NCBI GenBank assembly: GCA_016933025.1
Contig: JAFGBT010000008.1
Location: forward strand, 1 to 59,529
Length of the DNA stretch: 59,529 nucleotides
Direction of reading: 5' to 3'
From: Spirochaetota bacterium
GTDB lineage: Bacteria; Spirochaetota; UBA4802; UBA5550
Made by a program: the position numbers and the translations under genes. Below are positions 10,320-43,400 of this stretch, piece by piece. The number at the start of each line of letters is the position of its first letter. The stretch's first letter is position 1. Below the pieces are notes generated by a model. The model saw only the letters and a program-made list of their open reading frames with translations, searched no databases and had not been told where the DNA came from.

Positions 10320-10371
10320 GAGGGCCCGGGCCGCTCCCCGATATCATGAAAAAAAAATTAAGAAGAATATC

Positions 10372-10399
10372 TTGACAACATTGCGCGGTTATGGATTGT
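10372..10399 (+). promoter_or_regulatory. promoter for tRNA-Thr
   Basis: TTGACA at 10372-10377, then a 16-base spacer and GATTGT at 10394-10399, ending 16 bases before the mature tRNA. The -35 is perfect and the -10 is weak. Confidence 0.45.
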
Positions 10400-10415
10400 T
10401 AAGTAAATTTTTCAG

Positions 10416-10488
10416 GCCAGCATACCTCAGTTGGTAGAGGAGTCGATTCGTAATCGACCTGTCCCCGGTTCGATTCCGGGTGCTGGCT
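10416..10488 (+). tRNA. trnT: tRNA-Thr (anticodon CGU)
   Basis: A complete cloverleaf: acceptor GCCAGCA with TGCTGGC, D stem CCTC/GAGG, anticodon stem GTCGA/TCGAC with loop TTCGTAA (anticodon CGT, reading ACG), T stem CCCGG/CCGGG with TTCGATT, discriminator T. The CCA end is not encoded. The next open reading frame starts two bases after the discriminator. Confidence 0.97.
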
Positions 10489-10489
10489 C

Positions 10490-10993
10490 ATGAAGCGGAC
10501 CTATCGATTTAAGAGCCTGCTCCTGGCGCCGGTTCACCCGGGGGAGGGCGAATCAATCACCCACGATATCGTTTCCGGCCGCACCGTGAAGACCGGCGGC
10601 ATGGCCTATGACCTCGGCAGCGTCAGAGACCATGTGATGTCAGCGGGGCCGCTCCAGTTCCTTTTCTGCAGGTCGTGGGTGCCGACCTTCTTCCTCACGC
10701 TCATGGTCGTCTCCCTGCTGTTCGGGGTCGTCTACGCCATTCTGGTTATCGGACTGAAGGTCGACTTTGCTTCGCCTGTCGGCGCTCGCGCCGGGAAGAT
10801 CTATATCATCGCGCTCGTTATCTGTTTCGCAGTACTCTGGCTCGGCCTGGGGATACCGGCAGCGGTCAAGAGGCTGAAGCGCGACCATGTGGTGGCTGAG
10901 CGCGGAAAGGGCAACTGGGTGCTGGTTGACGAGGACCGGTGGGAGCGGTTTTACAGGATCGTGAGGCTTTCGCAGGAAGAAAAATCGGAATAA
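10490..10993 (+). CDS. small membrane protein, unknown function
   Basis: Up to 167 residues with two strong membrane segments (around residues 64-86 and 105-123) and a cytoplasmic basic C-terminal part. The ATG at 10490 lies directly behind tRNA-Thr, so translation from it would need a ribosome site inside the tRNA T arm, and none is visible. A start further downstream, such as the ATG near 10601, is possible. It stands 20 bases upstream of the acyltransferase gene and is probably co-transcribed with it. I do not recognise the family. Confidence 0.6.
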   Translation: MKRTYRFKSLLLAPVHPGEGESITHDIVSGRTVKTGGMAYDLGSVRDHVMSAGPLQFLFCRSWVPTFFLTLMVVSLLFGVVYAILVIGLKVDFASPVGARAGKIYIIALVICFAVLWLGLGIPAAVKRLKRDHVVAERGKGNWVLVDEDRWERFYRIVRLSQEEKSE

Positions 10994-11013
10994 CGGCGGT
11001 CACGAAGGGCGTT

Positions 11014-11748
11014 ATGGACCTTGTCATACGATACGCGAAGATATTCTGGATCTACTTCTGGGCCGCGGGCATGACCCTTATCCTCTTCGTGCCGGTCATA
11101 CTGGCGTCGTTGCTCAGCACCACCGGGAACCTCGCCTTTTCCATCACGAAGATCTGGGCCAGGGTCATGCTCCTGATATCGGCGGCGCGCGTGACGATTG
11201 TCGGGAAGGAAAAGATCGGCAAAGGCGTGTCCTATGTCATCGTTTCGAACCACCAGTCGCTGTTCGACATCCTCTCGCTGGTCACCTCGCTCGGCACCCA
11301 GTACCGGTGGACCATCAAGAAAGAACTCCTCAAGATTCCCCTTTTTGGCTACGCGCTCTACGCCTCGCGCAATATTTTTATTGACCGCTCTCATCCGGAT
11401 AAGGCGCGGGAGAGCATTCGGAAGGGCCTGGACCGCCTGCCGGCCGGGGTGAGCGTCATGTTCTTCCCCGAAGGGACACGGTCGACCGACGGCCGGCTCA
11501 GGGACTTCAAGAAAGGGGCGTTCACCGTCGCACTGGAGCGGCACTACCCGATTCTCCCGGTTACCGTCAACGGCAGCAGGAAGGTGCTTCCCAAGGGGAG
11601 CATCGTCTTCAAACCGGGCCGCATTTCGGTGACCGTAGCCGACCCGATAGAGACCACCGGTTACGACCATGACCGGATGGGCGAACTGATCGAGAAAACC
11701 CGCGCCGCGGTCCAGTCAAATCTGGCGATAGGGAACGGGGAGAATTGA
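11014..11748 (+). CDS. plsC: 1-acyl-sn-glycerol-3-phosphate acyltransferase
   Basis: 244 residues with both hallmark motifs: HQSLFD (HX4D, His80 and Asp85) and FFPEGTRS (FPEGTR at 151-156). The enzyme acylates lysophosphatidic acid to phosphatidic acid at the inner membrane; a hydrophobic N-terminal segment (about 9-35) fits membrane attachment. I place the start at 11014, after AAGGG at 11005-11009; an in-frame upstream start would overlap the preceding gene. The stop overlaps the start of the next gene (TTGA). The length fits the usual range for PlsC. Confidence 0.9.
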   Translation: MDLVIRYAKIFWIYFWAAGMTLILFVPVILASLLSTTGNLAFSITKIWARVMLLISAARVTIVGKEKIGKGVSYVIVSNHQSLFDILSLVTSLGTQYRWTIKKELLKIPLFGYALYASRNIFIDRSHPDKARESIRKGLDRLPAGVSVMFFPEGTRSTDGRLRDFKKGAFTVALERHYPILPVTVNGSRKVLPKGSIVFKPGRISVTVADPIETTGYDHDRMGELIEKTRAAVQSNLAIGNGEN

Positions 11749-13649
11749 CCGGCGTGCAAAAACTCAGGGGATACCTGCCGCTCCTGTTTCTGCCTCTGCC
11801 ATTTCTGTTCTATTTCTTCACCATGTGCCCGGCCATCGGGCTCGGCGACACGGCCCTCCTCATAGACGGCATGGCGAAGCTGAAGGTAAATTCGCACGTC
11901 AACAACCATAACCTCACGGTTATCGCCGGGCACTTCTTGCAGCTCGTTTTGCCGGGGGAGATGGCCTTCAGGGCAAACCTGGTGTCCGTGTTTTTCGGGG
12001 GGTTGGCCGTTGTTTCCTTCTATATCATGGGGATACGGATGACCGGCAGGCCGCTCCTCGCGGCCGCCGTATCGCTGGCGCTCATGGTGTCCCGGTCCCT
12101 CTGGTGGCACAGCACCATCGCCGAGGTCTATGCGCTCAACGCCTGTTTTACGGTCTGGATCGCCCACTGCCTCTTCCTGTTTTCCGAAACGCGGCGGTTA
12201 CGCTTTCTGTATATAGCGTCGGCCCTGTCCGGCCTCGCGCTTTTCAATCACGTGCAGATGGGCATCTGGATTCCGGCCATTTTCATCTTCATCATCCTGA
12301 ATTTTAAGAATGATAAAAAGGCGCTGCTGCGGGTCCTTGCGGCGTCGTCACTCTGTTACCTGGCCGGGTTCCTGCCGTACGTGATCGTATTTATCAGGGA
12401 CGCGGCGGCCGGGGAGTCGATACGCAAGGTCTTGTACTGGGCGTTGGGCGGCGATTTCCAGGGGATAATGTTCGGGGAGGGCTTTTTCAGGGGCCTGTAC
12501 GATTTTCTCTATCTGACCTTTCTGCAGTATCCGTCTCCGTACCTCCTGCTCGTGATAGCCGGGCCGGTGCTGGCGTTCCGGGACCGGCGCTATCGGGACC
12601 TGATCATCGCCCTGGCAGCCGGTTTTTGCGTGAACACCTATTTCTTCATGCGCTATCCGACCTGGGATAAGTTCGCCTTCCTCCTTCCGTCATTTGTCAT
12701 GCTCGGTATCGCCGGCCTGGCCGGCGCCGACGTCGCGCTGAGGAAATGGCTTGCCGGCAGTAGATGGGGGAGGGCCGCGGTCATCGCCGTGATCGCTGCC
12801 GGCGCCTTGATTCCGCCGTTTCTCTACGCCGCTATTCCCAGGTGGGCCCGAAACCCCGGATCGGCCTGGCACGCCCGGTACAACAACGACTACACCGAAA
12901 ACACGCACGACTGCGCCGCCTACATCGTAAACCCGGACAAGAGGAACTATCGAGACATCAGCGAGCTCGCGGACCTCATTTTCGAAAAGCTTCCGGCCGG
13001 CTCCCTGCTCGTCGACGACGATTCCCGCACCTATTATCCGCTCGCCGAATATTACCAGCGCTATTATGACCGGCGGCCCGATGTAACCATTGTGCTGATC
13101 AACTCGTGGGGCTTTCGCGGCTGGGGGGAATCCAGAGAACGTCTGGCGTCCGTTATCCGGAGGTCGATCGGCAGCAGGCCGGTATTCCTGATCTCAACGA
13201 AGCACCCCTACGTCGATCTGGTGAACGAGCTTTTCTGCGACGGCATCGTCACTGAGAAATTCGATCTCGGCGGGCGCCGCTGGATCTACCGGCTTCGGCG
13301 CGAACCGTCGGCCGTTGAGAGGGGCGCCCGCCTCGAGATCGACGGCATCATCACCGGGAGGAACATTGAAAGCGGGAAGAACCAGGAGGTGAAGGGCATC
13401 TTCAGGCCCGGTGAGATAGTCACGGCAATGGTTTCATTCAAAAAGAACAGCGTCCCCGTGAGGATTGAGTTCCTCTGGAAGGACGGGTCCGGCCGGATCG
13501 TTCACCGGAGCAGGCCTATCATAGTCCCGCCCGAAAACACCATGGCATGGGCGCGCCTTGACGGCAAAGGCCGTTCTCCGGGGCGGTGGAGCGTCGAGGT
13601 GCTGGCGAACGGGCGTTTTTTGAAATCAACATATTTTATTATACGCTAA
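11745..13649 (+). CDS. DUF2723-type polytopic membrane protein, probable glycosyltransferase
   Basis: 634 residues. The first 370 or so contain about ten membrane segments and the DUF2723 signature region: an early acidic loop (IGLGDTALLIDG), then paired His/Asn residues (VNNHNLTVIAG) and SLWWHSTIAEVYALN. The last 250 residues are a soluble domain. The family is related to GT-C glycosyltransferases of the protein O-mannosyltransferase type. The TTG start at 11745 overlaps the acyltransferase stop; a GTG at 11754 is an alternative. The acceptor and donor cannot be told from sequence. Confidence 0.75.
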   Translation: MTGVQKLRGYLPLLFLPLPFLFYFFTMCPAIGLGDTALLIDGMAKLKVNSHVNNHNLTVIAGHFLQLVLPGEMAFRANLVSVFFGGLAVVSFYIMGIRMTGRPLLAAAVSLALMVSRSLWWHSTIAEVYALNACFTVWIAHCLFLFSETRRLRFLYIASALSGLALFNHVQMGIWIPAIFIFIILNFKNDKKALLRVLAASSLCYLAGFLPYVIVFIRDAAAGESIRKVLYWALGGDFQGIMFGEGFFRGLYDFLYLTFLQYPSPYLLLVIAGPVLAFRDRRYRDLIIALAAGFCVNTYFFMRYPTWDKFAFLLPSFVMLGIAGLAGADVALRKWLAGSRWGRAAVIAVIAAGALIPPFLYAAIPRWARNPGSAWHARYNNDYTENTHDCAAYIVNPDKRNYRDISELADLIFEKLPAGSLLVDDDSRTYYPLAEYYQRYYDRRPDVTIVLINSWGFRGWGESRERLASVIRRSIGSRPVFLISTKHPYVDLVNELFCDGIVTEKFDLGGRRWIYRLRREPSAVERGARLEIDGIITGRNIESGKNQEVKGIFRPGEIVTAMVSFKKNSVPVRIEFLWKDGSGRIVHRSRPIIVPPENTMAWARLDGKGRSPGRWSVEVLANGRFLKSTYFIIR

Positions 13650-17000: not shown

Positions 17001-18611
17001 TTGAATCATAATATAAAAGGAAATCTTCCCTCCGATATGCCCCACAATTACCGGTGGATCGTCATGGGCATCGTGATGATAGGGACGATGATGGCGACGC
17101 TGGATTCGAGCATCGTGAACGTTTCGATACCGGCCATCATGGCTGATTTCGGCGCCAGCGTCGATGACATCGAGTGGGTAATGACCGGCTACATGATCGC
17201 CTTCGCGACCCTGATGCCGCTGACCGCGTGGATGCGCGACCATATAGGCTACAAGCAGCTCTATCTCGGCAGCCTCTTCGTGTTCACTATCGGCTCGCTC
17301 CTCTGCGGCGCCGCGTGGAACCTCGAATCCCTGATCGGGGCGCGCATCATCCAGGCCCTGGGGGGAGGGGCCATCACCCCGACCGGCATGGCCATGATAT
17401 CCGAGGTGTTCCCGCCGGAGGAGAAGGGCAAGGCGATCGGCATCTGGGGCGTCGGCGTCATCCTCGGCCCGACCATCGGTCCGACCCTGGGCGGCTACCT
17501 GACTAAGACCTTCGGGTGGCGGTCGATCTTTCTGGTGAACCTGCCGGTCGGCATCATCGCCTTCATAGCCGCGTCGATGCTCCTTATCAGAGACCGGCCC
17601 CATGAAAGCAGCCACCGCTCCTTTGACCTCTGGGGATTTATATTTCTCACCCTGTTCCTGGTTTCCTTCCTTCTCGGCCTGTCCAAGGGCGAGAAGGAGG
17701 GGTGGACATCGGCATATATACTTACCTGCGCCTTTATATCTATCGTGAGCCTTATTCTGTTCCTGGTCGCCGAAAGCCACGCGCCCCACGGCATCATTGA
17801 CCTGGGGCTTTTCCGATACCCGGTCTTTTCGATCTGCTCACTCATCATCGTGGTGCGATCGGTCGCCCTGTTCGGCGGGATTTTCCTCATGCCGCTCTTT
17901 CTGCAGCAGCAGATCGGGTATGACGAGATGCAGAGCGGCCTCATCATGATGCCCGGGGCCCTGATGGTCATGCTGTTCATGCCGATCACGGGACGAATGG
18001 GCGACCGTATCGGCGCGCGGATCCCTACCATTATTGGCATTTTTCTTCTGGGGGTTTCCCTGTACCTTTACAGGAATCTTGACGTGAATATGAGCCTGTA
18101 CGCGATCATAATGCCGACTCTTCTCCGCGGCATCGGCCTGGCCTTCCTGATGGCCCCGATAATGGCGGCCGCTCTCAACGCCATTCCCCATCAAAAAGCG
18201 GGGATGGCCTCCTCGATGCTCAACATCACCATGCAGGTGGCCGGTTCCATCGGCATCGCCTCACTCGCCACGGTCCTGAGCAACAGGATCCACTACCATC
18301 TTGGCGTTGTCGGGGCCGCCGCGAAGACGGGAACGCCGGAATTCATGGAAACATTCAGGCGCGTCTTCCAGCATGCGCATTCAATCGGGTATCCGTACGC
18401 CCAATCGAGGCAGGTGGCCGGCGCGCTGATCTACAGGAAGCTGGCCCAGTCGGCCGTCGTCATGTCCTTTCAGGACGCCTTCATCGTCGCCGCGATTATC
18501 GTGCTGGTCGCCTTCATCCCGGCGTTTTTCCTCCCGCGGCGCAATGCGATCCACGGGGCGCATGCGGAAACCGAGGAATTAGTCCGCGAGGAATCGGTGA
18601 TGATAGAATGA
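17001..18611 (+). CDS. MFS drug exporter, DHA2 (EmrB/QacA) family
   Basis: About 536 residues with 14 predicted membrane segments. It shows the family motifs: TLDSSIVNVSIPAI in helix 1, GGAITPTGMAMISEVFP in helix 4 and GVGVILGPTIGPTLGGYL (motif C) in helix 5. It should export amphipathic compounds by proton antiport together with the HlyD and TolC proteins. The TTG at 17001 has AAAAGGA at 16985-16991; the ATG at 17038 is an alternative. The stop overlaps the MMPL start (ATGA at 18608). Drug resistance or export of a self-made lipid are both possible. Confidence 0.88.
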   Translation: MNHNIKGNLPSDMPHNYRWIVMGIVMIGTMMATLDSSIVNVSIPAIMADFGASVDDIEWVMTGYMIAFATLMPLTAWMRDHIGYKQLYLGSLFVFTIGSLLCGAAWNLESLIGARIIQALGGGAITPTGMAMISEVFPPEEKGKAIGIWGVGVILGPTIGPTLGGYLTKTFGWRSIFLVNLPVGIIAFIAASMLLIRDRPHESSHRSFDLWGFIFLTLFLVSFLLGLSKGEKEGWTSAYILTCAFISIVSLILFLVAESHAPHGIIDLGLFRYPVFSICSLIIVVRSVALFGGIFLMPLFLQQQIGYDEMQSGLIMMPGALMVMLFMPITGRMGDRIGARIPTIIGIFLLGVSLYLYRNLDVNMSLYAIIMPTLLRGIGLAFLMAPIMAAALNAIPHQKAGMASSMLNITMQVAGSIGIASLATVLSNRIHYHLGVVGAAAKTGTPEFMETFRRVFQHAHSIGYPYAQSRQVAGALIYRKLAQSAVVMSFQDAFIVAAIIVLVAFIPAFFLPRRNAIHGAHAETEELVREESVMIE

Positions 18612-21600
18612 GCCTTTCAAAACAAAACAGATTTCGATGGTTCTCGATACTGGCGATTGTCCTCGCGGCGGCGGGAATGTCATACCTGGGCACGACCCGC
18701 CTTGCCCTGGACATGGATATCACCAGATCGCTGCCGATAGACGACCCGGTCATCGCGGACGCCGAGTATGTGATGACGCACCACCCGGTTAAGGACCGGA
18801 TCGTCATAGACCTGGGCCATGACGGGGCGGACGCCGACCTGCTGGTCGAGGGAGCGTCCGTTGTGGAGAGGCGGCTCGCCGGGAGCGGGCTGTTTAAAAG
18901 CGTCGGGCTCGAGGAATACCAGTCGGTATTCCCCGAACTCATCTCGTATGTCATGCATAACCTTCCGGTCCTCTTTTCCGCGCGGGAGCTTGACAAGAAG
19001 ATACGTCCCCTCCTTGAACCGGCGAAGGTCAGGGAAGCGCTTGCCGACAATTACGCACAGCTTCTCGACCTTCAGGGGATAGGGCAGGCGAACATGATGG
19101 CGGCCGACCCCCTCGGCTTTAGGAACACGGTCCTCGCACGGCTGGCGCACCTCGCGCCCTCCCTCACGATCAGGATGGTGCGGGGACACCTGGTTTCGTC
19201 CGACGGAAGGCATCTTCTTATAACGGCGGAGCCGAAGGATTCGGCCACGGACACGGCGCTGGCGCGGAAAATAGCTTCCCTCCTCAGCCTGTGCGAAGGT
19301 GACCTCCGGAAGGAATTCGGGCCGCGGGGCATCGCTTTCACGCTCAACCCGGTCGGGGCGTACCGGGCGGCCCTCGACAACGAGGAGACTGCCAAGAAGG
19401 ACACGCGCATGGCCGTGATCTTCGCCACGATCGGCATCGCGATACTACTCCTGCTCGGGTTTCCCCGCCCATTTCTCGGCATTCTCGCGCTGGTGCCCGC
19501 TGTCCTGGGGACCATTGCCGCGGCATTCGTCTATTCCCTGTTCTCCCGGTCGATATCGATTCTCGCTATAGGCTTCGGCGGCACGATAATATCGTTCACC
19601 GTCGATTACGGCATAGCCTATCTCCTCTTCCTCGACAGGCCCTATGAGACACGCGGTATGGACGCTACCAGAGAGGTCTGGGGGATCGGGCTGCTGGCGA
19701 TGCTGACGACGGCTGCCAGCTTTGCATTCCTGTTCGTCAGCGGATTTTCGGCGCTGGCCCAGATTGGCTTATTTGCCGCTCTCGGCGTGGTGTTTACCTA
19801 TATCTTCGTGCACACGCTCTTCCCCGTCATTTTCCCGACCATGCCACCGGCGAAACGGGGAGGCTTCATCTCCCTCCAGAAGGTGGTGGATCTGATAATG
19901 AGCTCCCGTCCGGCCTGGAAAGCCTTCGCGGCCCTCGCGTTCGGCGTTGTCATGCTGGTTTTCGCCAGGCCGAACTTCAGGGTCGACCTCGCCTCCATGA
20001 ACACGGTGAGCCGCGACACACTGAGGGCCGAGAAGCTGGTCACGGATACCTGGGGCAACGTCCTGACGAGGCTCTACATCATGACCGAGGCCGGGAGCAT
20101 CGGAGAGCTCCAGCAAAAGGGAGACAGACTCGCCGGCGAGCTCGGCAGGGAGATAGCATCCGGCGCCCTGTCATCGGCCTTTGTGCCGTCCATGCTTTTC
20201 CCCGGCGAGGCACGGATGAAGGAGAACCTGTCCGCGTGGAGCGCGTTCTGGACGCCGAAGCGTGTCGCCGTCCTGAGACAGACCATGCGTGAGTCTTCAC
20301 GCGAGATAGGGTTCGCGCCGGACGCTTTCGATACTTTTTTCAATACGATCGCGCGGAGGAATTTTACGAGCAGGGAAGTTCCCGAAAAATTCCATGGCCT
20401 CCTCGGGATCCGCCGGATGCCGGGCGGCGGGTCATGGGCTCAGTTCTCGGTCCTGACTCCGGGGGAGTCGTACCGCGCCGGGCGGTTCTACTCCCGGGTG
20501 TCGAATTCGGGCCTTGCGCGTCTCTTCGACCCGTCATTTTTCGCCGATCGTCTCGGCGCCATCATACTGTCGGCATTTCTCAGGATGACGCTCATCGTCG
20601 GCGCCATCACCGCTGCGGTCGCGTTCGTCTGCCTCCTTGATCTGAGGCTGATGCTGATATCTCTCGCGCCGACCGTCTTTTCCCTGGTGTGCACGCTCGG
20701 CGCCATGAAGCTCCTCGGCGAGCAGCCGGGCATACCCACCATTATCGTCGCGGTCATCGTGATCGGCATGGGGACCGATTACTCCATGTACCTGGTACGG
20801 GCCTACCAGCGCTACATGGACGGGGCCCACCCCTCGGTCGGCCTGATCCGGCTGACGGTGTTTCTGTCCGCGTGCTCCACCCTCATCGGCTTCGGGGTGC
20901 TCAGCTTTGCGGAGCACGCGCTCCTGAGGAGCGCGGGGTTGACCCTGGCGCTGGGGATCGGGTTCTCGTTTGCCGGTACGATCCTCATCGTGCCGCCCCT
21001 GCTGGGTATAGTGTTCAGACGCCGGGAAGAGCCGGGCGGCGCCGTGGTGCCCGGTTCGAAGGAACACCGGGCGCGCGTGGAGAGGCGCTACCGGTTCATG
21101 GAGGCGTATCCGCGGCTCTTCGCCCGCTACAAGATGCGGTACGACCCGATGTTCTCGGAGCTCCATGAATTTCTCGGAAGGCCGGACACCATCGTTGACG
21201 TGGGGACCGGCTACGGAGTGCCTGCCGCGTGGGTTCTTGAGATGCTTCCCGGCGCCAGGTTATGGGGGATCGAGCCGGACGGCAGGAGGCGCATGGCGGC
21301 CTCACTGGCCCTCAAGGGGCGCGGCACGGTAGCGCAGGGGGGCGCGCCGGAGCTCCCAGAATTTCCGGGCAGGGCGGACGCGGTCCTCATGATCGACATG
21401 ATGCACTACCTGACCGACGCCGATCTCGAGCTCCTCCTCGGCCGCGCGAGGAGGAAGATGTCGCCTAAGGGAGTGTTGATAGCCCGGGCGACCGTGCCGG
21501 GGAGAGACAGAACGATCCTCAGGATGATCGAGGCGCTCTGGATCCGGGCGAAGGGCCTGTCCATGAACTACCGCGGCGAGGAGGAGATCGTCCGCGCCAT

Positions 21601-21724
21601 GGAGCGGGCCGGGTTTGCCGTAGCCGTGAGGGAATCCTCGAACGCGAGCAGGGAGGAAAAATGGTTCATCGGCAGGCCAAAGCCGGCCCCGAAGAGAAGG
21701 GTGCGGTCTCGTGCCGGCAGGTAA
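18608..21724 (+). CDS. MMPL/RND-type exporter fused to a SAM-dependent methyltransferase
   Basis: 1038 residues. The first 810 or so form an RND-superfamily lipid exporter (COG4258-like): a membrane segment at about 12-30, a periplasmic domain, a block of membrane helices (about 255-410), a second periplasmic domain and a second helix block (about 650-805, with VIVIGMGTDYSMYLVRAY). The last 220 residues are a methyltransferase: motif I TIVDVGTGYGVPA near residue 860, an acidic residue in GIEPDGRR, and VLMIDMMHYLTD. The fusion ties methylation to export. It ends the TetR-controlled operon, coupled to the MFS gene. Substrate unknown; a polyketide- or fatty acid-like lipid is plausible. Confidence 0.85.
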   Translation: MSLSKQNRFRWFSILAIVLAAAGMSYLGTTRLALDMDITRSLPIDDPVIADAEYVMTHHPVKDRIVIDLGHDGADADLLVEGASVVERRLAGSGLFKSVGLEEYQSVFPELISYVMHNLPVLFSARELDKKIRPLLEPAKVREALADNYAQLLDLQGIGQANMMAADPLGFRNTVLARLAHLAPSLTIRMVRGHLVSSDGRHLLITAEPKDSATDTALARKIASLLSLCEGDLRKEFGPRGIAFTLNPVGAYRAALDNEETAKKDTRMAVIFATIGIAILLLLGFPRPFLGILALVPAVLGTIAAAFVYSLFSRSISILAIGFGGTIISFTVDYGIAYLLFLDRPYETRGMDATREVWGIGLLAMLTTAASFAFLFVSGFSALAQIGLFAALGVVFTYIFVHTLFPVIFPTMPPAKRGGFISLQKVVDLIMSSRPAWKAFAALAFGVVMLVFARPNFRVDLASMNTVSRDTLRAEKLVTDTWGNVLTRLYIMTEAGSIGELQQKGDRLAGELGREIASGALSSAFVPSMLFPGEARMKENLSAWSAFWTPKRVAVLRQTMRESSREIGFAPDAFDTFFNTIARRNFTSREVPEKFHGLLGIRRMPGGGSWAQFSVLTPGESYRAGRFYSRVSNSGLARLFDPSFFADRLGAIILSAFLRMTLIVGAITAAVAFVCLLDLRLMLISLAPTVFSLVCTLGAMKLLGEQPGIPTIIVAVIVIGMGTDYSMYLVRAYQRYMDGAHPSVGLIRLTVFLSACSTLIGFGVLSFAEHALLRSAGLTLALGIGFSFAGTILIVPPLLGIVFRRREEPGGAVVPGSKEHRARVERRYRFMEAYPRLFARYKMRYDPMFSELHEFLGRPDTIVDVGTGYGVPAAWVLEMLPGARLWGIEPDGRRRMAASLALKGRGTVAQGGAPELPEFPGRADAVLMIDMMHYLTDADLELLLGRARRKMSPKGVLIARATVPGRDRTILRMIEALWIRAKGLSMNYRGEEEIVRAMERAGFAVAVRESSNASREEKWFIGRPKPAPKRRVRSRAGR

Positions 21725-26167: not shown

Positions 26168-29100
26168 ATGATAACCGTGGAAGAAAACAGAGGCGCCGGC
26201 GTGCGCGACCTTCTCCTGCCGGTACGGGGCATGGTGGGAGCGGTACAGAAAACCGAGAACCTCATCGCCGAGCTCACGCATCCCAATGTTGACTGGAAAT
26301 TCGTCATATCAGGCCTCCGCACATACCTCTTTGACTACATCTACGATCTTCTTCCCTACGCCGATACGGTGATGCCCGTAATCTACCGGTACCTCAGGGA
26401 AGCTACGGAAAGGAAAAAGATATCGGCGATACGCGCATGCGATACCTTTTTCGACCGTTATATCTTCACGCAGGGCAGGTTCCTGGACGGCGACGAACGG
26501 TTCCGGGAGATCTGCGCGTTTTTTGATTCCTGCCTGACGGATTACCTGGAGATCCTGACCAGGCTCAGTAACGAGGGCTTTTATTTCGAGAACATACACG
26601 ACCGGTTCCTGAGCGCGGGGGAACTGCTGTGCGCGCGAGAGGACCCGGATGAGACCGGCGGGGCCGGCGCCCTGGCCCGATTCATCCTGCTCCAGTACCG
26701 GGTCTACGTCGGGCGGGCCATCGTGGTGGAGGAGAGCGATATCGCGGAGCTCCACGACGTGCTTGGGCCGCCGCCGGGAAGGGACCGGTTTATTGAGATC
26801 CTCAACGATGTCGCCACTGGCGCGTACGAGAGGCGCCTGGAGGAGATGGAACGGCTCGCCGGGGGGGCGGCCGCGGAGCTCATTCTCAAAGAAAGAACCG
26901 TGGCCGACTTCAAGCACAACACGTTACTCTGGGAGCGTATCTGCCTGATGGCGACGGGCGCAATCGAGAACGGGGATATCGGCGGCGACGACGCCATCAT
27001 GCGCATATTTGAGTTTCTGATAAGGAAATCAAACCAGGGAGGGGACCGGGACCTCCAGCTCTTCATGTCCCGCACCCTCTCATCGCTCTGCGCCGTCCTG
27101 GTGAAGAACGGCAGGCTGGGCCTGCTCCAGAATGTCGTGAGCCTTATCATGCCGGTGCTCCTCGCCGAGATCGAGCGGGGGGGCAATTACACCGCGGCCT
27201 TCTACACGATATACAATATTGGAGAGTCAGTCATCAGGTCGGGCAACATCGGATTAATAGATTTTTTCGAGGACATCCTGGTCCGATCGAAATTCAGCTT
27301 TCCGGAGATATCCGGCATCGCTTCGGACTGGTCCGTTATCGTCAACTCGAGCCATCTCGAGAACATCAGGACATGGATGAAGCTTATCGAGATCAACCCG
27401 GCAGTGATGAAAAAGCTGTCTGCCAGCCTTATCGTCAACCTGAAGCTGTACGGCGTCTTCCTGAAGGACACGGATGTGTTCCAGCGGGACATCTCCCGCC
27501 TTCTTAACAGCAACTACCGTGACGTATTTTACCTGATCATTTCCCTGGCGTCGGTGTTCCCGGCCTTCTACCACGACATAGGGGCCACCGGCGACATCCG
27601 CGCGTTCACCGAGAGAATCGACACCAACCATCGCATGAACGACCTGATCCATTTCATGAGAAAACAGGTGCACGTCGAGTCGAGCTCCCAGACGGTGCTC
27701 CTGATCCAGCGGATCATGGAATTCTGGATGACGGGCGAACGGGAACTCTTGAAGAACATGGTGCCCCCCGAGGTCTATGAGAACCTGGGGACCTTCTTCC
27801 GACTGGTCAACCTGGACGTGGAGGACGCGCCGGGGAAGATGTACCGGGAGGCGGTGAAGCGCTTTCCAGAGCATGCGGACAAGAAATTCTGGGATTTTCT
27901 GAACGACGTGGACGAGGAGCCGTTCGCGAATTTCGCGGCGAGCAGCTCGTTCACGGGCGTCTCGGAGGACGAAAAGCTGGCGGCGCTCGAGCTGATGCGG
28001 TTATATTTCGAGACGAGGCTTCCCACCGAGATGACGAAGATTCTCCACTACATCAGGAACCGGTTCGGCCTCGATGTGTCGAAGAAGGTCATCTGGAAGT
28101 TCATCTACGAGATCTCTGACGACGACTTCCGCAAGATGTTCGAGGACGTGGGCACCCGGGACATATCCCGGGTAAACATCGAGAAGTTCATCACCTTCCT
28201 CCACGTGTACCGGCTTCTTTTTGACAAGTACAATTTCACCGACGTGCGGGTCATTGAGAAGCTCGAGCGCTACGCGGCCGAGGGGCTCTTCGATCCGCCT
28301 CCCGGTTTTTTCGAGAGTATGAAGGGAAGCGACACCCTGACCGCGCTTGACCTTCTCCTGAAGACGCAGCTGGTGCTCAAGGACCGGATACTACTGTCGG
28401 AGCAGGTGTTCGAGCCGCTCGATACGATCGACCTGAAACGCCATATTGCCTTCGGTATACCGTCCATGTACGGTTCTTATAAGGAGAAGAAGTTCGATAC
28501 CCTGAAGGTTTTCTTCCACATGAATCTCATCCGCGTCCGTTTTTTCCGGCAGATCATTGACGGCATGAACCTCGCCTCCGGGAGCCCGGCGTCCTTCAAC
28601 GATGTGAAGAGGGTCTACAAGCTGTTCATCAAGACCTTCGTCATCGACGGGCTGGCGAACCAGGAAATGCTCAACTACAACAATCTCCTCGAAACGCCGA
28701 ACCTGCGGCTCTCCCAGCTCAGGGACATCGTCACCCAGACCCTTACCGTTCACGGCGAAATCTCGGACCGGTTCAACGAGACATTCAAATACGTCTGCCG
28801 CGAGGCGATACGGAACATCGGGGTCGAGCGCATCGCGAAGCAGTACATCCCGCGCGACAATCCCGAGAGCATCGAGGTCATAATCGACCGTTTCGTCCGC
28901 GGCCAGATCATGCAGTCGCCCCTCCTGCAGCTCTTCGACAACTTCCTCATCGCGGTAAAGGAGATGCTTGCGCGGGAGAAGGGCGACCCGGTATGCCTCA
29001 ACGAGGATGAGAAGCGGAACGGCGTGCGGAACAGCGTCTGGGAGGTCATAAGGCTCCTTGACGATCCGAGCGATCCCTATGATCCGTACGATCCCTACGA

Positions 29101-30652
29101 CGAGGACCGGTACGCCCAGATACACGACATCAAGAAGCTCGGCGAGGCGCACGGCGAGGAGGACCGCTATGCTCCGGTCTGGGAGATAGGGAGCAAGGCG
29201 CACGGTCTTCTCTTCATAGCCAACATGGAGGGCGTTAACGCGCCCCCCGGAATAATCCTCTCCTCTGAGCTCTACAAGCGGCTGGGCGATTCGCTGATCA
29301 ACGACGTTGAATCGCGGCAGCAGACGATATATTTACTGAAGCGCTACATCGACAAGTTCACGGAAAACCGGTTCGGGAGCGCCAAAAATCCGCTCCTCCT
29401 GTCGGTCCGCAGCGGCGCGGTCTTTTCGATGCCCGGGGTCATGGACACCATCACCAATGTCGGGATGACACGCGAGATACTGGCCCATTACGCCCGTTCC
29501 GACCAGTGGTTCGCGTGCGACTGCTACCGGAGATTTTTGCAGGACCTGGCAATATCATATTATGGAATGGACCGGAGGATATTCGAGGACCTGATGTACG
29601 GCTACAAGGAGAAGGCCGGCGTCGGCCTTAAGGAGAACATGACCGGAGACCAGATGGCGGAGCTCGCCATTCAGTACCATGACGCGATCAGGCGCCAGGG
29701 CCACTACATTCCGGAGGACCCGTACGAACAGCTCCTCTATTCGATCGTGGCCGTTTTCCGATCGTGGAACTCGCCCGTCGCCCGCAAGTACCGCGAGCTG
29801 GTCAACATATCGGACGACTGGGGGACTGCGGTCATCATCCAGAACATGGTATTCGGCAACTCGTCGCCCGACAGCATCACCGGCGTGGTGCACAGCCGCT
29901 ACCAGGGGAAGGAAAAGATCGACCTTTTCGGCGAGTACAAGACCAGGGCGCAGGGCCATGACATCGTGAGCGGCGTCGCGCGCGTCTTTCCGGTGAGCGA
30001 GGACCAGAAGAAGGTATACCCCCGGTTCGCCGCCATGCCGTCGATGGAACAGCGCTTCCCGGAGCTGTATGACATGCTTTTCCACGCCGTCCAGAGGATA
30101 CGGGACCGGTGGGGAAACGACCTGCAGATTGAATTCACGATAGAGAACGGCATGCTCTATATCCTCCAGGTGCGCGGCGAGGTGAACCATATCTTTGAAA
30201 CCTTCGAGCTTGTCGAGTCCCCTGCGGACCTCGAGCCCTTTCTGCTCGGACAGGGGCTTGCCGCTTCGGGCGGCGCGGTTTCCGGCAGGGCGGTGTTCGA
30301 TATCGGGCGAATCGACCTGGTGAGGGAACTGCACCCGGGCGACGGGGTCGTCCTGGTCAGGCCCGAGACAAACCCGGAGGACGTTGTCGGCATGGAAAAG
30401 TCGGACGGCATTCTTACCTGTATCGGCGGGATGACGTCTCATGCCGTGCTGCAGATGAGGCGTCTGGGGAAGTCGGGGGTGAGCGATTTTTCCACGATGC
30501 GAATCGACGAGGAGAAGAACCGGGCCTGTGTCGACCCGGGCGCGGACGCCGGCGATGCAGTCATCATCGGGGAGGGAGACTTCATAACGATTGACGGCTC
30601 CACGGGGAATGTGTATCGAGGATTTCACAAAACCGTGAAGCGGAAGATATAA
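26168..30652 (+). CDS. PPDK-like ATP-grasp/phosphohistidine protein with a 930-residue N-terminal region
   Basis: 1494 residues. The last 520 resemble pyruvate phosphate dikinase: the ATP-grasp start (IGSKAHGLLFIANMEGVNAPPG near 1015), LSVRSGAVFSMPGVMDTITNVG near 1080, the conserved QIEFTIENGMLYILQVR near 1320, and the phosphohistidine loop GGMTSHAVLQMRR near 1425. The PEP/pyruvate TIM barrel found in PPDK and PEP synthase is absent: the protein ends about 70 residues after the His loop. The first 930 residues are helical, without membrane segments or a motif I know, followed by a DPYDPYDPYDED stretch. It may phosphorylate its own His from ATP and pass the phosphate to another protein or small molecule. 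GAPDH is encoded 55 bases downstream. Confidence 0.8.
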   Translation: MITVEENRGAGVRDLLLPVRGMVGAVQKTENLIAELTHPNVDWKFVISGLRTYLFDYIYDLLPYADTVMPVIYRYLREATERKKISAIRACDTFFDRYIFTQGRFLDGDERFREICAFFDSCLTDYLEILTRLSNEGFYFENIHDRFLSAGELLCAREDPDETGGAGALARFILLQYRVYVGRAIVVEESDIAELHDVLGPPPGRDRFIEILNDVATGAYERRLEEMERLAGGAAAELILKERTVADFKHNTLLWERICLMATGAIENGDIGGDDAIMRIFEFLIRKSNQGGDRDLQLFMSRTLSSLCAVLVKNGRLGLLQNVVSLIMPVLLAEIERGGNYTAAFYTIYNIGESVIRSGNIGLIDFFEDILVRSKFSFPEISGIASDWSVIVNSSHLENIRTWMKLIEINPAVMKKLSASLIVNLKLYGVFLKDTDVFQRDISRLLNSNYRDVFYLIISLASVFPAFYHDIGATGDIRAFTERIDTNHRMNDLIHFMRKQVHVESSSQTVLLIQRIMEFWMTGERELLKNMVPPEVYENLGTFFRLVNLDVEDAPGKMYREAVKRFPEHADKKFWDFLNDVDEEPFANFAASSSFTGVSEDEKLAALELMRLYFETRLPTEMTKILHYIRNRFGLDVSKKVIWKFIYEISDDDFRKMFEDVGTRDISRVNIEKFITFLHVYRLLFDKYNFTDVRVIEKLERYAAEGLFDPPPGFFESMKGSDTLTALDLLLKTQLVLKDRILLSEQVFEPLDTIDLKRHIAFGIPSMYGSYKEKKFDTLKVFFHMNLIRVRFFRQIIDGMNLASGSPASFNDVKRVYKLFIKTFVIDGLANQEMLNYNNLLETPNLRLSQLRDIVTQTLTVHGEISDRFNETFKYVCREAIRNIGVERIAKQYIPRDNPESIEVIIDRFVRGQIMQSPLLQLFDNFLIAVKEMLAREKGDPVCLNEDEKRNGVRNSVWEVIRLLDDPSDPYDPYDPYDEDRYAQIHDIKKLGEAHGEEDRYAPVWEIGSKAHGLLFIANMEGVNAPPGIILSSELYKRLGDSLINDVESRQQTIYLLKRYIDKFTENRFGSAKNPLLLSVRSGAVFSMPGVMDTITNVGMTREILAHYARSDQWFACDCYRRFLQDLAISYYGMDRRIFEDLMYGYKEKAGVGLKENMTGDQMAELAIQYHDAIRRQGHYIPEDPYEQLLYSIVAVFRSWNSPVARKYRELVNISDDWGTAVIIQNMVFGNSSPDSITGVVHSRYQGKEKIDLFGEYKTRAQGHDIVSGVARVFPVSEDQKKVYPRFAAMPSMEQRFPELYDMLFHAVQRIRDRWGNDLQIEFTIENGMLYILQVRGEVNHIFETFELVESPADLEPFLLGQGLAASGGAVSGRAVFDIGRIDLVRELHPGDGVVLVRPETNPEDVVGMEKSDGILTCIGGMTSHAVLQMRRLGKSGVSDFSTMRIDEEKNRACVDPGADAGDAVIIGEGDFITIDGSTGNVYRGFHKTVKRKI

Positions 30653-30659
30653 TAACGAA

Positions 30660-30707: not shown

Positions 30708-31859
30708 ATGACAACCATTTCACCAAAATCACCGGTCGGCATCAACGGCATCGGGAGAATAGGCAAGCTTATGGCATGGCTGATGTCTACGAAAGAGGAG
30801 CTGGAGGCTATCGTCATCTCGACGGGCAGGAAGAGCGGCAAAAGCCTGGACGACCTGGCGACCTACCTGGGGTACGATTCAACATACGGCCCGTATGCCC
30901 GCTTTATATCGGGCTTCGGTCGGGAGAAGGCCATTGAGATAAACAACGACACGCTCTACCTGAACGGGAAGAAGCTGGTCTGGCTGAACGACCAGGAATA
31001 CCGCGTGCCGGGGAGCATCCCCTGGTCGAAGCACGGCGTAGAGCTGGTGTTCGACACGACGGGCAAGATGACCGACCCGACCAAAAACGAAGACAACTCG
31101 CTCCGGGGACATCTACACAACGCGAAGAAGGTGGTGCTGACCGCTCCCTTCAAGATCAAGAACAAGGGGGCGATGATGCCCGAAGACGCGGTGACGGTCG
31201 TGGGCGGCGTGAATTTCGACAGATACGATCCCGCGGCGCATACTATTATCTCCAACGCGTCGTGCACCACGAACTGCTGCGCCCCGCCTATCAAGGCGCT
31301 GGTGGACCATTTCGGGGACAAGTTCATTTCATATGCTCTGACCACGGTGCATGCGGCTACCAATTCCCAGCAGGTGCTGGACGTGCTCCCCAAGGACGGC
31401 GAGAAGGATTGCCGGAAAACGAGGAGTATTATAAACAACATCATCCCCTCGACCACCGGCGCCGCCAACGCGGTTATCGAGGTCATCCCTGAAATCCGCA
31501 CCCTGGGGATCGGCTCGCAGGCATCGTCCCTGCGCGTGCCGACCAACACCGCGTCAATCGTCATCCTGGACATATCGCTCATCGGGGAATACGACAACGA
31601 CTACATGCATTCGATATTCAGCAAGTACAGCGAGCGCAATCCGGAGATCATGAGGTTCTCGGACAAGCAGCTGGTGAGCTCCGATATCATAGGGAGCACC
31701 CATTCGACCATTTACGACGCGCTCTTCACGCACAGGAGAACGACCAAACGCGACGGACAGCTGTATACCATGGTCGACCTGAACTTCTGGTACGATAACG
31801 AGTTCGGGTATGTCTGCAGCCTGGATCGTCTCTATAACCTGATAATTGGAAAACGTTGA
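30708..31859 (+). CDS. gap: glyceraldehyde-3-phosphate dehydrogenase, divergent form
   Basis: 383 residues, about 45 more than usual. GINGIGRIGK (11-20) binds the nucleotide, Cys176 in SNASCTTNC is the nucleophile and His205 in TTVHAATN is its partner. The enzyme oxidises glyceraldehyde 3-phosphate to 1,3-bisphosphoglycerate. After strand 2 the usual NAD-selecting Asp (ND motif) is replaced by STGRKSG, whose Arg and Lys would suit NADP(H). TGAAKA reads TGAANA. The insertions lie in the first 110 residues. AAGGAG precedes the ATG. It is probably co-transcribed with the PPDK-like gene. Confidence 0.9.
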   Translation: MTTISPKSPVGINGIGRIGKLMAWLMSTKEELEAIVISTGRKSGKSLDDLATYLGYDSTYGPYARFISGFGREKAIEINNDTLYLNGKKLVWLNDQEYRVPGSIPWSKHGVELVFDTTGKMTDPTKNEDNSLRGHLHNAKKVVLTAPFKIKNKGAMMPEDAVTVVGGVNFDRYDPAAHTIISNASCTTNCCAPPIKALVDHFGDKFISYALTTVHAATNSQQVLDVLPKDGEKDCRKTRSIINNIIPSTTGAANAVIEVIPEIRTLGIGSQASSLRVPTNTASIVILDISLIGEYDNDYMHSIFSKYSERNPEIMRFSDKQLVSSDIIGSTHSTIYDALFTHRRTTKRDGQLYTMVDLNFWYDNEFGYVCSLDRLYNLIIGKR

Positions 31860-39703: not shown

Positions 39704-39778
39704 CGGGGTGTAGCTCAGCCCGGTTAGAGCGCCTGCTTTGGGAGCAGGAAGTCGGAGGTTCGAATCCTCTCACCCCGA
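39704..39778 (+). tRNA. trnP: tRNA-Pro (anticodon UGG)
   Basis: Acceptor CGGGGTG with CACCCCG, D arm GCTC...GAGC, anticodon stem CCTGC/GCAGG with loop TTTGGGA (anticodon TGG), T arm GGAGG TTCGAAT CCTCT, discriminator A. CCA is not encoded. Confidence 0.96.
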
Positions 39779-39791
39779 AGGGAAGTTTTCA

Positions 39792-39825
39792 CGATGCGAT
39801 GGCTGCTTGCGCAGCCATCGCATCG
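39792..39825 (+). other. 15-bp perfect hairpin behind tRNA-Pro
   Basis: CGATGCGATGGCTGC (39792-39806) and GCAGCCATCGCATCG (39811-39825) pair perfectly around TTGC. It starts 14 bases after the tRNA. Without a T tract it may be a processing or attenuation structure, or the edge of the repeat cluster that follows. Confidence 0.7.
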
Positions 39826-39858
39826 CGGAATATAAGCGCCTCGGCATAAGCTCTCTTG

Positions 39859-39960
39859 CGCGCGGAGGCTTATCATTCGCCCGCCTCGTAAAAAACATCC
39901 TGTTTGCGAGGCGGGAGCGGCGACCTCCATGTCGCCTTCTCATTGATAAGCCTCCACGCT
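39859..39960. repeat. structured ~100-bp repeat, copy 1
   Basis: The ends are inverted repeats: GCGCGGAGGCTTATCA (39860-39875) and TGATAAGCCTCCACGC (39944-39959), 15 of 16 bases. Inside are a second hairpin, CCCGCCTCG (39880-39888) with CGAGGCGGG (39907-39915), and a third, GGCGAC (39919-39924) with GTCGCC (39931-39936). Folded, this is a closed stem carrying two arms. A further inverted repeat, GGCATAAGC (39843-39851) and GCTTATGCC (39980-39988), flanks the copy. Together with the hairpin at 39792 and copy 2, it fills the 395 bases between the two tRNA genes. Confidence 0.8.
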
Positions 39961-40023
39961 CAGTTTGGTATATTTTTAGGCTTATGCCTTGTAATAATCG
40001 CGTTTCGACACAAAGATTATCTA

Positions 40024-40123
40024 CGCGCGGAGGTTTATCATTCGCCCACCTCGCAAAAAACGTCCTGTTTGCGAGGCGGGAGCGGCGCCATCCTGCCGCC
40101 TTCTCATGATAATCCTCCACGCT
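40024..40123. repeat. structured ~100-bp repeat, copy 2
   Basis: A diverged direct copy of 39859-39960. The outer ends GGAGGTTTATCA and TGATAATCCTCC still pair, the inner stem is longer here (CACCTCGCAAA with TTTGCGAGGCG), and the third hairpin has shifted to GCGGC with GCCGC. The sequence has changed but each stem can still form. It ends 50 bases before tRNA-Arg. Confidence 0.8.
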
Positions 40124-40173: not shown

Positions 40174-40246
<73 letters not shown>

Positions 40247-40497: not shown

Positions 40498-43400
40498 ATG
40501 GACAAGACCAGGATACTCATAGTTGAGGACAATGCAATTATAGCCAACGATCTTGCACGGGAGCTCGGCCAGTGGGGCTATGATGTTCCGGCCATCGCAT
40601 CGAAAGGAAGAGAGGCATTGGATGCCATAGAAAGGCATCGGCCCGACCTGATCATACTCGACATCGATATGCCGGGCGGGATGGACGGGATCCAGACCGC
40701 CGGTATGATCCGCGAAGAATACGGCATTCCTTTCATCTACCTTACCGCCTATTCTGATGATTCGCTTATCAGCCGCGCCAAGGAGACCGGACCGTACGGG
40801 TATATCCTGAAGCCGTATCGGTCCAACGAGCTCCGCATAACGATAGAGATGGCCCTATCGGCGCATGAAATTGAAAAGCGCCTCAGAGAGGTAAACAGCC
40901 GGCTTGAACGGGAAGTGGATGAACGCCGGCGCGCTGAAAACATGCTGAAAGAGAGCGAGGAGCGTTATTTTTCGCTTTTTAATAATTCAATAGAAATGGT
41001 CTGCGTGGCCGACCTTAACGGCGTGTTCATAGATGCGAACCGGAAGGCCTTTGAAGCCATGGGCTATACTAAAGATGACCTCGGCAGGGCTTCATTCACT
41101 GACCTGCTGGAGGGGGAGGATCTCAAGCGGGTTATCGTAGCGGTGAAGGAGATAGTACGGACCGGAAAGCAGAATGAAATAGCTGAATACCGGGTGAAAA
41201 AGAAAAACGGCGATATAATGTACGTTGAAAGCACGGGGACCATTGTATATCATCAGGGTGAGCCGACAGGGATCATTATTATCGGCCGCGATATCACAAA
41301 ACGCAAGCTTGACGAGGCGGCGCTCCGCAAGAGCGGAGAGAAATACCGGGACCTGGTCGAGCAGATGAACGATGTCCTATACAAGGTCCGAAAGGACGGA
41401 ACCCTGATCTTCGTCAGCGGCGCGGTCAGACAGGTTCTCGGGTTCAGCCCTGATGAGCTCGAGGGGCGCAATTACAGCGAGACCATCTACGAGGAAGACG
41501 TAGAATCAATCATCCGCGACTTCGGCGAGGCTCTTGCCGGAAATCGCACCATCGGCGAGTATCGCATAAAGACCAGGTCGGGCGACGTCAGATGGGCGAA
41601 ATTTTCGAGCAGGCCGTATTATGAGCAGGGGGAGCCTGCGGGCATCCTGGGCGTGATGTCGGATATAACGCTCAGGAGATTGGCCGTGGAAGAGCTGCGC
41701 AGCTCCAACGAGCGTCTGGCGGCGACCCTCAATGCTCTGCCGGATTATATGTTCGAGCTCGACGGTGAAGGACGTTTTTGGGATTACCGTACGCCGCGGG
41801 ATTCCAAACTCACTATTTCGCCCGAGACATTTATAGGAAAAACAGTACATGAGGTTATGCCTGAAAGCACGCATCCGGTCATCTTTCAGGCCATTGATGA
41901 AGCCAAAAAAACCGGGCTCCACAGGGGAGGGGTCTATTCGCTGCCGATCCGGGGCAGCGTTTTCTGGTTCGAGCTTTCAATAGCGGCCATGGGTGGTCCC
42001 CGGACGTCGGATGTCCGCCTTGTGGCGCTGGCGCGCGATATCACCGAGCGGAAGCGCTCGGAAGAGGCATTGCGACTGAGCGAGGAGAAGTTTTCGAGAA
42101 TGTTCCAGTTCTCTCCGGTCTCTCTCGCGTTCAGCACTCTGACGGATGGAAGATACCTCGATGTCAACGAGGCATTTGTGAATCTGACCGGCTTTTCCCG
42201 CGGGGAGGTGGTCGGCCGGAGTTCAGTGGACCTCGGGTTCTGGGCTGATTCGACGGTGCGGGCCCGCATAAGAAAAGCGGTATCTTCATCAGGAATAGTG
42301 CTGGGAGAACAGGTGATGCTGCGAACCGGCAACGGCTCTTTGAAGACTGTATTGTATTCGGCGGTCAGGATTGACGTTGAAGGTCAGCCTTGTATCGTAA
42401 GCGCCGCGGAAGACATAACGGAGCGCATCAGGTACGAGGAGGCGCTTGACAGGAGCCGCGGAGAGCTCCAGTCCGTGTTCGACGGCGCGCCGATAATGAT
42501 GTGCGTTGTGGGCCAGGACCGGAAGGTGCTGCGCGGCAACAGGGCGTTCAAGGAATTCTCCGGGTGGGAGGAGGGGGAATCGGTGTCAGCCCCGGCCTGC
42601 GGCGTTCTCGGGTGCGTCAACGCGCTCGATGACTCGCGTGGGTGCGGCTACGGGGAAAACTGCGCGTCATGCGCGCTGCTCCTTGCCATCGAGGGTACCT
42701 TTGGAGACCGCCTTGAGAGAACCGGTGTTGAAAAAAAGCTCGCGATCTCAAGAGGCGGAAGAGTCGGGGAGTTCTTTTTCCTCGCGTCCACGACGCTCCT
42801 TCATCCAGACAAGAGCCCCGATCTTCTCCTCTGCCTTCAGGATATCACAGCATGGAAGAGGGCCGAACAATCCCTCGTGGAAAGCGAGCAGAAGCTGAAA
42901 GCGGTGGTGGACGGCTCCTCGATACCGCAGTTTTTTATCGATACTGATCGCCGCGTCGTCTACTGGAACAAGGCCCTCGAGAGGATCAGCGGCATCCAGG
43001 CACGGGATATCATAGGCACCAGGGACCAGTGGAGGGCCTTTTATACAGAGGAACGGCCGTGTATCGCGGATCTCCTGCTGGACACGGAGGGCGCGGGGTC
43101 AAAGATGGAACAATGGTATGGCGATAAATACAGAAAATCAGAATATGTCGACGGGGCGGTCGAAGCCTTTGATTATTTTCCGAATCTGGGGGATCGCGGC
43201 AAATGGCTGCATTTTACCGCCACGGCAATCAGAAGCATAAATGGAGATATCATTGGCGCAATCGAAACGCTGGTCGATATAACCGGCCGCAGGACCGCCG
43301 AGATGGCCCTTCAGGAGAGCGAGCGGAAATACCGCGAACTCGTGGAAAACGCCAACAGCATCATTCTTCGCATGGATCCGCAGGGGAACGTTACCTTTTT

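Follow-up and report, generated by a model that had tools for sequence, protein, structure and literature searches.

What a PPDK-type protein does without the PEP/pyruvate barrel of pyruvate, phosphate dikinase (PPDK) is the question raised by a giant gene on contig JAFGBT010000008.1 of a Spirochaetota bacterium. The window, meaning the whole stretch of DNA that was analysed, is 59,529 nucleotides long.

Domain organization of the giant protein

The originally predicted open reading frame was recovered exactly, and its catalytic half is organized as follows:

26168..30652, + strand: giant PPDK-type protein P0001, 1494 aa, ATG start (exact ORF match)
29183..30187, + strand: PPDK-type ATP-grasp domain, residues 1006-1340 (profile, PDB alignment, structure comparison)
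30200..30649, + strand: swivel domain, residues 1345-1494 (Pfam, PDB and structure alignment)
30440..30442, + strand: codon of the predicted phosphohistidine H1425, equivalent to PPDK H455 (alignment to PPDK)

The frame is not a chance one, given its 1494 open codons, full-length close homologues of 1451-1504 aa, and an architecture seen again in proteins named from several phyla. Retention of the ATP-grasp and phosphohistidine domains was confirmed by Pfam matches to PPDK_N (residues 1068-1339, E 3.3e-18) and PEP-utilizers (1392-1480, E 1e-13). The expected SVRSGA and TSHA motifs lie at 1079-1084 and 1423-1426, and the swivel domain carries the GGxTSHA phosphohistidine motif. The ATP-binding residues, said to be kept, are indeed present on alignment (K1010, R1081, E1322, Q1334 and R1336; PPDK K22, R92, E323 and Q335 are all retained), except that PPDK Asp321, a metal-site residue, is replaced by Q1320. 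This position is Gln in 22 of 216 family proteins and Glu in most relatives.

The third PPDK domain is missing, as predicted. In phmmer searches of the PDB, residues 1007-1489 at most were alignable, to PPDK, with the best row pairing 1021-1489 with 1kbl 31-511. A model of residues 300-1494 superposes on 1kbl 2-517 and not on the barrel. The chain stops at PPDK residue 511-517, and the Pfam scan found no PEP/pyruvate TIM barrel family. Furthermore, the protein falls below the cut-off of the PPDK equivalog TIGR01828 (331.9 bits against 843.45).

The family is large, with at least 2501 members at E≤1e-10; one search gave 114 matches, including the giant itself. Among the matches listed, members carry PPDK_N and, where complete, PEP-utilizers, without the barrel family. 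When 32 members were scanned singly, any other Pfam family was matched in three at most. Alignments were restricted to proteins of 1280-1600 aa, a range outside which fell 8 of 114 proteins in one set and 16 of 232 in another. No relative was found on viral contigs. The plasmid matches listed cover 34% of a distant query (P0077), its C-terminal part, and wherever they name a feature it is pyruvate, phosphate dikinase. Several named relatives of the giant bear the same database label, which in their case is in all likelihood wrong.

The N-terminal region

Upstream of the catalytic half, the following features were mapped:

26168..27292, + strand: variable helical N-terminal part, residues 1-375 (AlphaFold2 model, alignment)
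27293..29002, + strand: conserved helical core, residues 376-945, putative acceptor domain (AlphaFold2 model, alignment)
27467..27490, + strand: motif DTDVFQRD, residues 434-441 (D434, T435, D436, F438 and D441 at least 98% invariant)
27560..27682, + strand: conserved block, residues 465-505 (conserved-residue alignment)
28427..28495, + strand: hairpin motif I754-F776, IDLKRHIAFGIPSMYGSYKEKKF (15 of 23 positions at least 98% invariant)
29003..29182, + strand: low-confidence linker, about residues 946-1005 (AlphaFold2 model)

The original prediction described a 930-residue helical region. The AlphaFold2 model (mean pLDDT 86.5, pTM 0.82) agrees that it is helical, but its extent is nearer 945 residues, it is interrupted by short strands, chiefly around 755-772, and it is followed by the low-confidence linker. 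The view that it contains no known domain was upheld, with no Pfam family above cut-off before residue 930 and no Foldseek match in the PDB at E≤0.001.

Conservation is uneven along the chain. Against the distant group, mean identity is 13% over residues 10-340, 30% over 340-940, and 36% in the catalytic C-terminal half. Within block 465-505, residues P465, G472, A473, G475, R478, D485, H495, F496, R498, K499, Q500, H502 and E504 are at least 98% invariant; within the hairpin motif, pLDDT drops below 50 at 758-761. The earlier suggestion that this region may bind another acceptor fits the two blocks of invariant residues. The large helical domain, which has no assigned family, has what looks like an active site.

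Pairing with a divergent GAPDH

The giant was originally treated as a single-gene unit. This has to be revised, as the unit comprises two genes, the second being:

30708..31859, + strand: GAPDH-like partner P0115, 383 aa, 55 nt downstream of the giant (Pfam, alignment, tree, locus survey)
30825..30830, + strand: Gly40-Arg41 in the NAD-Asp32 loop (alignment)
31263..31265, + strand: codon of catalytic Cys186, in SCTTNC (alignment)

Whether GAPDH always adjoins the giant had been posed as a check, and it does so wherever the contig is long enough. In 23 of 25 loci, a set without Acetobacterium and other distant relatives, the divergent GAPDH directly follows the giant in the same orientation, and in the remaining two the contig ends within the giant. 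An all-against-all comparison of these loci recovered the giant in 25 and a GAPDH-like ORF in 22, with one more found by tblastn. Other neighbours are sporadic (a ~280-aa family in 8 loci, the rest in five or fewer, mostly related loci), and in this set the pair has no widely conserved third companion gene. Among 30 genomes of the order that are at least 90% complete, the divergent GAPDH occurs in 18 of 18 with the giant and in none of the 12 without it. Matching by the length of the longest contig weakly linked 16 of 61 close giants to a GAPDH-like match, using the best 120 of 2210 GAPDH matches, and the locus survey takes precedence over it. In one relative of Desulfobacterota type, a GAPDH of this kind forms part of the same chain; the junction lacks the end of the giant and the first residues of the GAPDH, so the fusion may stem from misassembly or a deletion, and it shows adjacency either way. 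Co-transcription is not assured, since sequence resembling a promoter occurs where the giant gene ends (30624-30653).

The partner retains the catalytic Cys149/His176 pair and T179 and R231, which presumably bind the C3 phosphate. In the GAPDH alignment, from which rows of 300 aa or less were left out, Gly-Arg replaces the NAD-ribose-binding Asp32 in all 114 covering GAPDH-like rows, and this replacement suggests use of NADP(H). Y178 and R195 are altered in the group, the Pi-site Arg195 being Lys in most. The group sits on a long branch (2.11) in the tree, and P0115 scores below the cut-off of the type I GAPDH equivalog TIGR01534 (291.7 bits against 367.2).

A second, canonical-type GAPDH is present in 30 of 30 genomes, and so is PFK, which therefore offers no contrast. 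Phosphoglycerate kinase (PGK) was found in 19 of 21 genomes, the gaps being one genome without the giant (G002) and one with it (G037); replacement of a lost PGK is thus unsupported. With canonical GAPDH, PFK and mostly PGK in place, the pathway shows no gap that the pair would have to close, and nothing indicates that sugar breakdown has been lost.

Proposed reaction and alternatives

Our best explanation, held tentatively and at somewhat less than even confidence, is a swivel dikinase with a predicted N-terminal acceptor core that would make an acyl phosphate for the adjacent GAPDH variant. The pair likely represents an undescribed step, probably running in the sugar-building direction. From the domain type and the residues kept, the ATP-grasp domain would bind ATP and probably Pi, His1425 would take the beta-phosphate, and AMP and probably PPi would leave. 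By analogy with PPDK and rifampicin phosphotransferase (RPH), the swivel domain would then move to the N-terminal core with its phosphoryl group. There it would pass to the acid of the GAPDH reaction, which the gene pairing predicts to be 3-phosphoglycerate, giving 1,3-bisphosphoglycerate. The GAPDH-like enzyme, with its catalytic residues kept and its NAD Asp lost, would reduce this product, probably with NADPH, to glyceraldehyde 3-phosphate. The pair would stand to PGK as PPDK and PEP synthase stand to pyruvate kinase, costlier, strongly driven and in the sugar-building direction. In its fullest form, which we regard as doubtful, the giant would be a phosphoglycerate dikinase (3-phosphoglycerate + ATP + Pi -> 1,3-bisphosphoglycerate + AMP + PPi) that supplies its product to a GAPDH dedicated to it and dependent on NADPH. 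Spirochaetes, sulfate reducers, acetogens and others would then possess a strongly driven bypass of the PGK/GAPDH step that has stayed hidden, its dikinase long mistaken for PPDK.

The acceptor might instead be another small molecule, such as a sugar phosphate, a polyol or a cofactor, with the GAPDH paralogue using a different phospho-aldehyde of that pathway. Glucan is one acceptor of swivel dikinases. Others vary widely, with rifampin, phenols and hydroxyphenylethanones named in the excerpted text of two reports (PMC12167813, PMC4844700), and the long branch and the changes at Y178 and R195 also favour this reading. The retained T179, R231 and catalytic pair and the lack of a widely conserved third gene count against it, leaving it somewhat unlikely. 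The giant could also be a regulatory histidine kinase or scaffold that, autophosphorylated on His1425, regulates the neighbouring GAPDH or anchors it through contact between the proteins. A precedent is VadK, a barrel-less PPDK derivative described, in the available part of its report, as a regulatory histidine kinase acting with methylcitrate-cycle enzymes (PMC13400623). However, the invariant polar blocks 376-505 and 754-776 look like a site for catalysis or for a small molecule, conservation is lowest in residues 10-340, and 945 residues seem excessive for a regulator, so we consider this role unlikely.

It is quite unlikely that the pair runs catabolically, with 1,3-bisphosphoglycerate produced by the GAPDH-like enzyme and then consumed by the giant, together with AMP and PPi, to form ATP in a PPi-saving substitute for PGK. 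PPDK runs catabolically in bacteria and protozoa according to the portion consulted of PMC5371819, and PFK is universal in the genomes, but Gly-Arg in place of Asp32 points to NADP(H), and canonical-type GAPDH and mostly PGK are already there. It is highly improbable that the giant is an ordinary PPDK with its barrel supplied by another gene, in spite of the PPDK label on several named relatives: contig 29 of this genome carries a separate PPDK-like ORF (920 aa), none of the scanned neighbours in the window has the barrel family, and the constant follower is GAPDH.

Literature and implications

The literature search found no published description of the giant family or of its pairing with GAPDH, and no co-mention of "pyruvate-binding domain-containing protein" with GAPDH. 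In the literature searched, "phosphoglycerate dikinase" turns up in a single paper, where pyruvate phosphate dikinase is meant. The original description as an undescribed system therefore stands for the function, as far as this search reached, but the proteins are common and a barrel-less derivative is known in VadK (PMC13400623, in part). In the sections available, two PPDK genes are listed for gluconeogenesis in Desulfotignum phosphitoxidans (PMC4046663) and one PEP synthase/PPDK gene in Desulfococcus biacutus (PMC4103992), and a review names only GAPOR and GAPN as variations of the glycolytic trunk (PMC8100219). If the proposed reaction is correct, it would add a further architecture at one of the most conserved steps of lower glycolysis, with different energetics (two phosphoanhydride bonds against one) in anaerobes near the energetic limit. 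Even if the acceptor differs, giant relatives annotated as pyruvate, phosphate dikinase are no basis for inferring PEP synthesis.

Comparison with known systems

Compared with PPDK (EC 2.7.9.1; 1kbl), the giant has no PEP/pyruvate barrel, carries about 945 extra N-terminal residues, has exchanged Asp321, and is paired with a GAPDH. Glucan water dikinase has N-terminal starch-binding CBM domains; scanning the giant and 32 family members against Pfam gave no CBM family at E≤0.1. RPH is ordered as ATP-grasp, RIF-binding (acceptor) and His domains, and its chain ranges in the structure alignment agree with an acceptor domain between ATP-grasp and His. In the giant, the additional helical domain comes ahead of the ATP-grasp domain, which is of PPDK type. 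The RPH rows listed align only within model residues 675-1187 (giant 974-1486), and none on the N-terminal region.

The analogy originally drawn to RPH and to further swivel dikinases is sound, judging from the structure alignment and the available portion of PMC12167813. That portion describes the two-component phenolic dikinases HpeHI, CreHI and PpsAB, which share the swivel mechanism and a non-barrel acceptor domain but differ in having two chains, a PEP-synthase-like nucleotide motif and aromatic acceptors, and it mentions no GAPDH partner (PMC12167813). Unlike these separate chains, the giant has its ATP-grasp and His domains in a single ORF. VadK consists of ATP-binding and His domains only, without the large N-terminal region of the giant. 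Like the giant, this mycobacterial protein is a PPDK without the pyruvate domain and tied to a metabolic step, as described in the accessible part of PMC13400623.

If 3-phosphoglycerate is indeed the acceptor, the giant would convert between the same carbon compounds as PGK, yet PGK is an unrelated protein (PF00162 has no Pfam match in the giant) that converts ATP to ADP, where the giant would release AMP and probably PPi. The pairing of the giant with a GAPDH gene nevertheless recalls that of GAPDH and PGK genes in gap-pgk operons.

Genomic context and co-occurrence

The giant PPDK-type protein and its partner gene are arranged as follows.

26168-30652 (+), giant PPDK-type protein, 1494 aa
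30708-31859, GAPDH-like protein, 383 aa, 55 nt downstream of the giant

The original prediction had asked whether GAPDH always adjoins the giant. Among 25 loci from other genomes, the GAPDH-like gene immediately follows the giant, in the same orientation, in 23, and in the remaining two (L047 and L048) the contig stops inside the giant. No third gene family occurs around the giant in more than 8 of these 25 loci. Co-occurrence was assessed in 30 genomes of the window's order (its own genome included, completeness ≥90%), with GAPDH-like proteins defined by ≥69% identity and >450 bits. They were found in 18 genomes, exactly the giant carriers (the gene is split by contig ends in G011), and in none of the 12 genomes lacking the giant. 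All 30 genomes carry another GAPDH, 37-42% identical to the GAPDH-like protein. The giant and the GAPDH-like gene form a tight two-gene context.

Across Spirochaetota, the giant architecture was detected in 25 of 296 genomes, all from the window's order or nearer; three of them (G035, G042, G043) give a partial match, and one additional genome (G045) holds a contig-end fragment. At locus L046 of G042 (8633-13212, -), the reading frame of the giant is broken near residue 427 into two ORFs, through either an assembly error or a real split, and in G023 the extended profile-search match contains one TAG. A promoter-like match (30624-30653, +; TTCACA-18-TATAAT, 11/12) runs across the giant's stop codon, so the GAPDH-like gene may be transcribed from a separate promoter; the stretch holds 5 such matches against 3.1 expected.

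Other features of the window are:

10416-10488, 39704-39778 and 40174-40246 (+), three tRNA genes
39738-40109 and 39770-40120, ORFs overlapping one tRNA gene, which may be spurious
18608-21724 (+), 1038-aa protein matching MMPL/RND-type transporters, with a methyltransferase domain after them at the C terminus
40498-45111 (+), 1537-aa signalling protein that combines a response regulator receiver with many PAS domains and a histidine kinase; chemotaxis receptor and CheA-type genes lie downstream (46479-50367)

Distribution beyond spirochaetes

A homology search with residues 1-930 returned 114 proteins, the query counted: 63 close relatives, the named ones from Spirochaetes or Spirochaetota, and 50 distant giants, mostly 1330-1420 aa, with names including Acetobacterium, Desulfobacula, Riflebacteria, Fermentibacter and Peptococcaceae. 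One distant giant, P0111, carries a hemerythrin domain (PF01814) fused ahead of the helical region. The core of the Desulfobacula giant retrieved at least 2501 proteins at E≤1e-10; among the best 120 of these, the named ones are Desulfobacula, Desulfobacter, Desulfotignum, Desulfospira, other Desulfobacterales or carry wider "Proteobacteria" labels. The family is real and widespread, and in all likelihood misannotated.

One protein, P0351 (1588 aa, 66% identity to the Desulfobacula core), is a giant running in frame into the N-terminal part of a GAPDH. The end of the giant and the first residues of the GAPDH are missing at its junction, so it may be a product of deletion or assembly; genuine or not, the two genes adjoin in its source. 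In a tree of 65 GAPDHs, built by a quick method and with a program warning of long branches, P0351 clusters with the Desulfobacterota-type GAPDH-like proteins (support 90), and one branch (SH-aLRT 100) separates these and the spirochaete GAPDH-like proteins from 24 others. The longest branch is L072, a very divergent homologue (33% identity) that is the third GAPDH of one same-genus genome (G005:C9:156790-157818).

Fold and conserved residues of the giant

The front region had been described as helical and of unknown fold, and the structure prediction and fold searches agree with both descriptions. The predicted structure of residues 1-1010 (pLDDT 86.5, pTM 0.82) is helical up to ~945 apart from short strands, the main ones forming a hairpin at 755-772, and continues into a low-confidence linker. 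Foldseek (E≤0.001) returned no match for the N-terminal region and VIA nothing above background; its sequence-profile matches are designed helical repeats.

In an alignment of 216 of the 232 giants retrieved, 54 of the first 960 positions reach ≥98% invariance, 30 of them within 352-520 and 15 within 754-776. They include R401, D434, D441, R478, D485, H495, R498, K499, H502, E504, K687, K757, R758, H759, S766, Y771, E773 and K775. Mean identity between the window giant and the distant group is 13% over residues 10-340, 30% over 340-940 and 36% over 1000-1490. Such a distribution is what an active site within the N-terminal core would give, and this is predicted to be the acceptor site.

The ATP-binding residues, expected to be intact, are largely so: equivalents of PPDK K22, R92, E323, Q335 and R337 are present in 216/216 giants, and the equivalent of H455, the predicted phosphohistidine, in 215 (one gap). 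The exception within the ATP site is the D321 position, where 192 giants have Glu, 22 (the window giant among them) have Gln and 2 have Asp. This altered metal ligand need not abolish activity, since work on rifampin phosphotransferase (RPH) describes an Mg-coordinating Glu as dispensable and Lys22 as essential (PMC4844700).

Residues of the GAPDH-like group

Among 116 GAPDH-like rows (80 spirochaete-type, 36 Desulfobacterota-type), the catalytic Cys is present in all, while the catalytic His is seen in 115, the remaining row having a gap there. The group also retains residues equivalent to T179, T208 and R231. Some NADP-using GAPDHs retain Asp32. At this site the canonical GAPDHs, a tally that took in six GAPDH-like loci, have Asn-Asp, and the GAPDH-like group has Gly-Arg in 114/114 covering rows. 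Asp32 is described as bonding the adenosine 2'-hydroxyl of NAD+ (PMC3728087). The GAPDH-like group likely uses NADP(H), and the window genome carries, beside a canonical-type GAPDH, another that is probably of NADP type and linked to the dikinase.

Proposed function

Swivel dikinases are described as taking up phosphate at an ATP-grasp site and delivering it to an acceptor domain elsewhere in the enzyme, the acceptors being pyruvate in PPDK, rifampin in RPH and hydroxyphenylethanones in HpeHI (PMC12167813). The giant is a new variant among them, with the helical core most likely as its acceptor domain. Given the strict pairing, and from the pairing alone, the best guess for the acceptor is the acid of the GAPDH reaction, 3-phosphoglycerate. 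The giant would convert it to 1,3-bisphosphoglycerate, spending ATP to AMP and probably PPi, and the GAPDH-like enzyme would then reduce this product with NADPH. Phosphoglycerate kinase (PGK) was found in 19 of 21 genomes tested and PFK in 30/30, so there is no need for a bypass, which counts against the proposed step. A regulatory role like that described for VadK (PMC13400623) is a well-defined rival. If the giant does phosphorylate 3-phosphoglycerate, the pair would constitute a driven gluconeogenic step parallel to PGK, resembling PPDK and PEP synthase beside pyruvate kinase.
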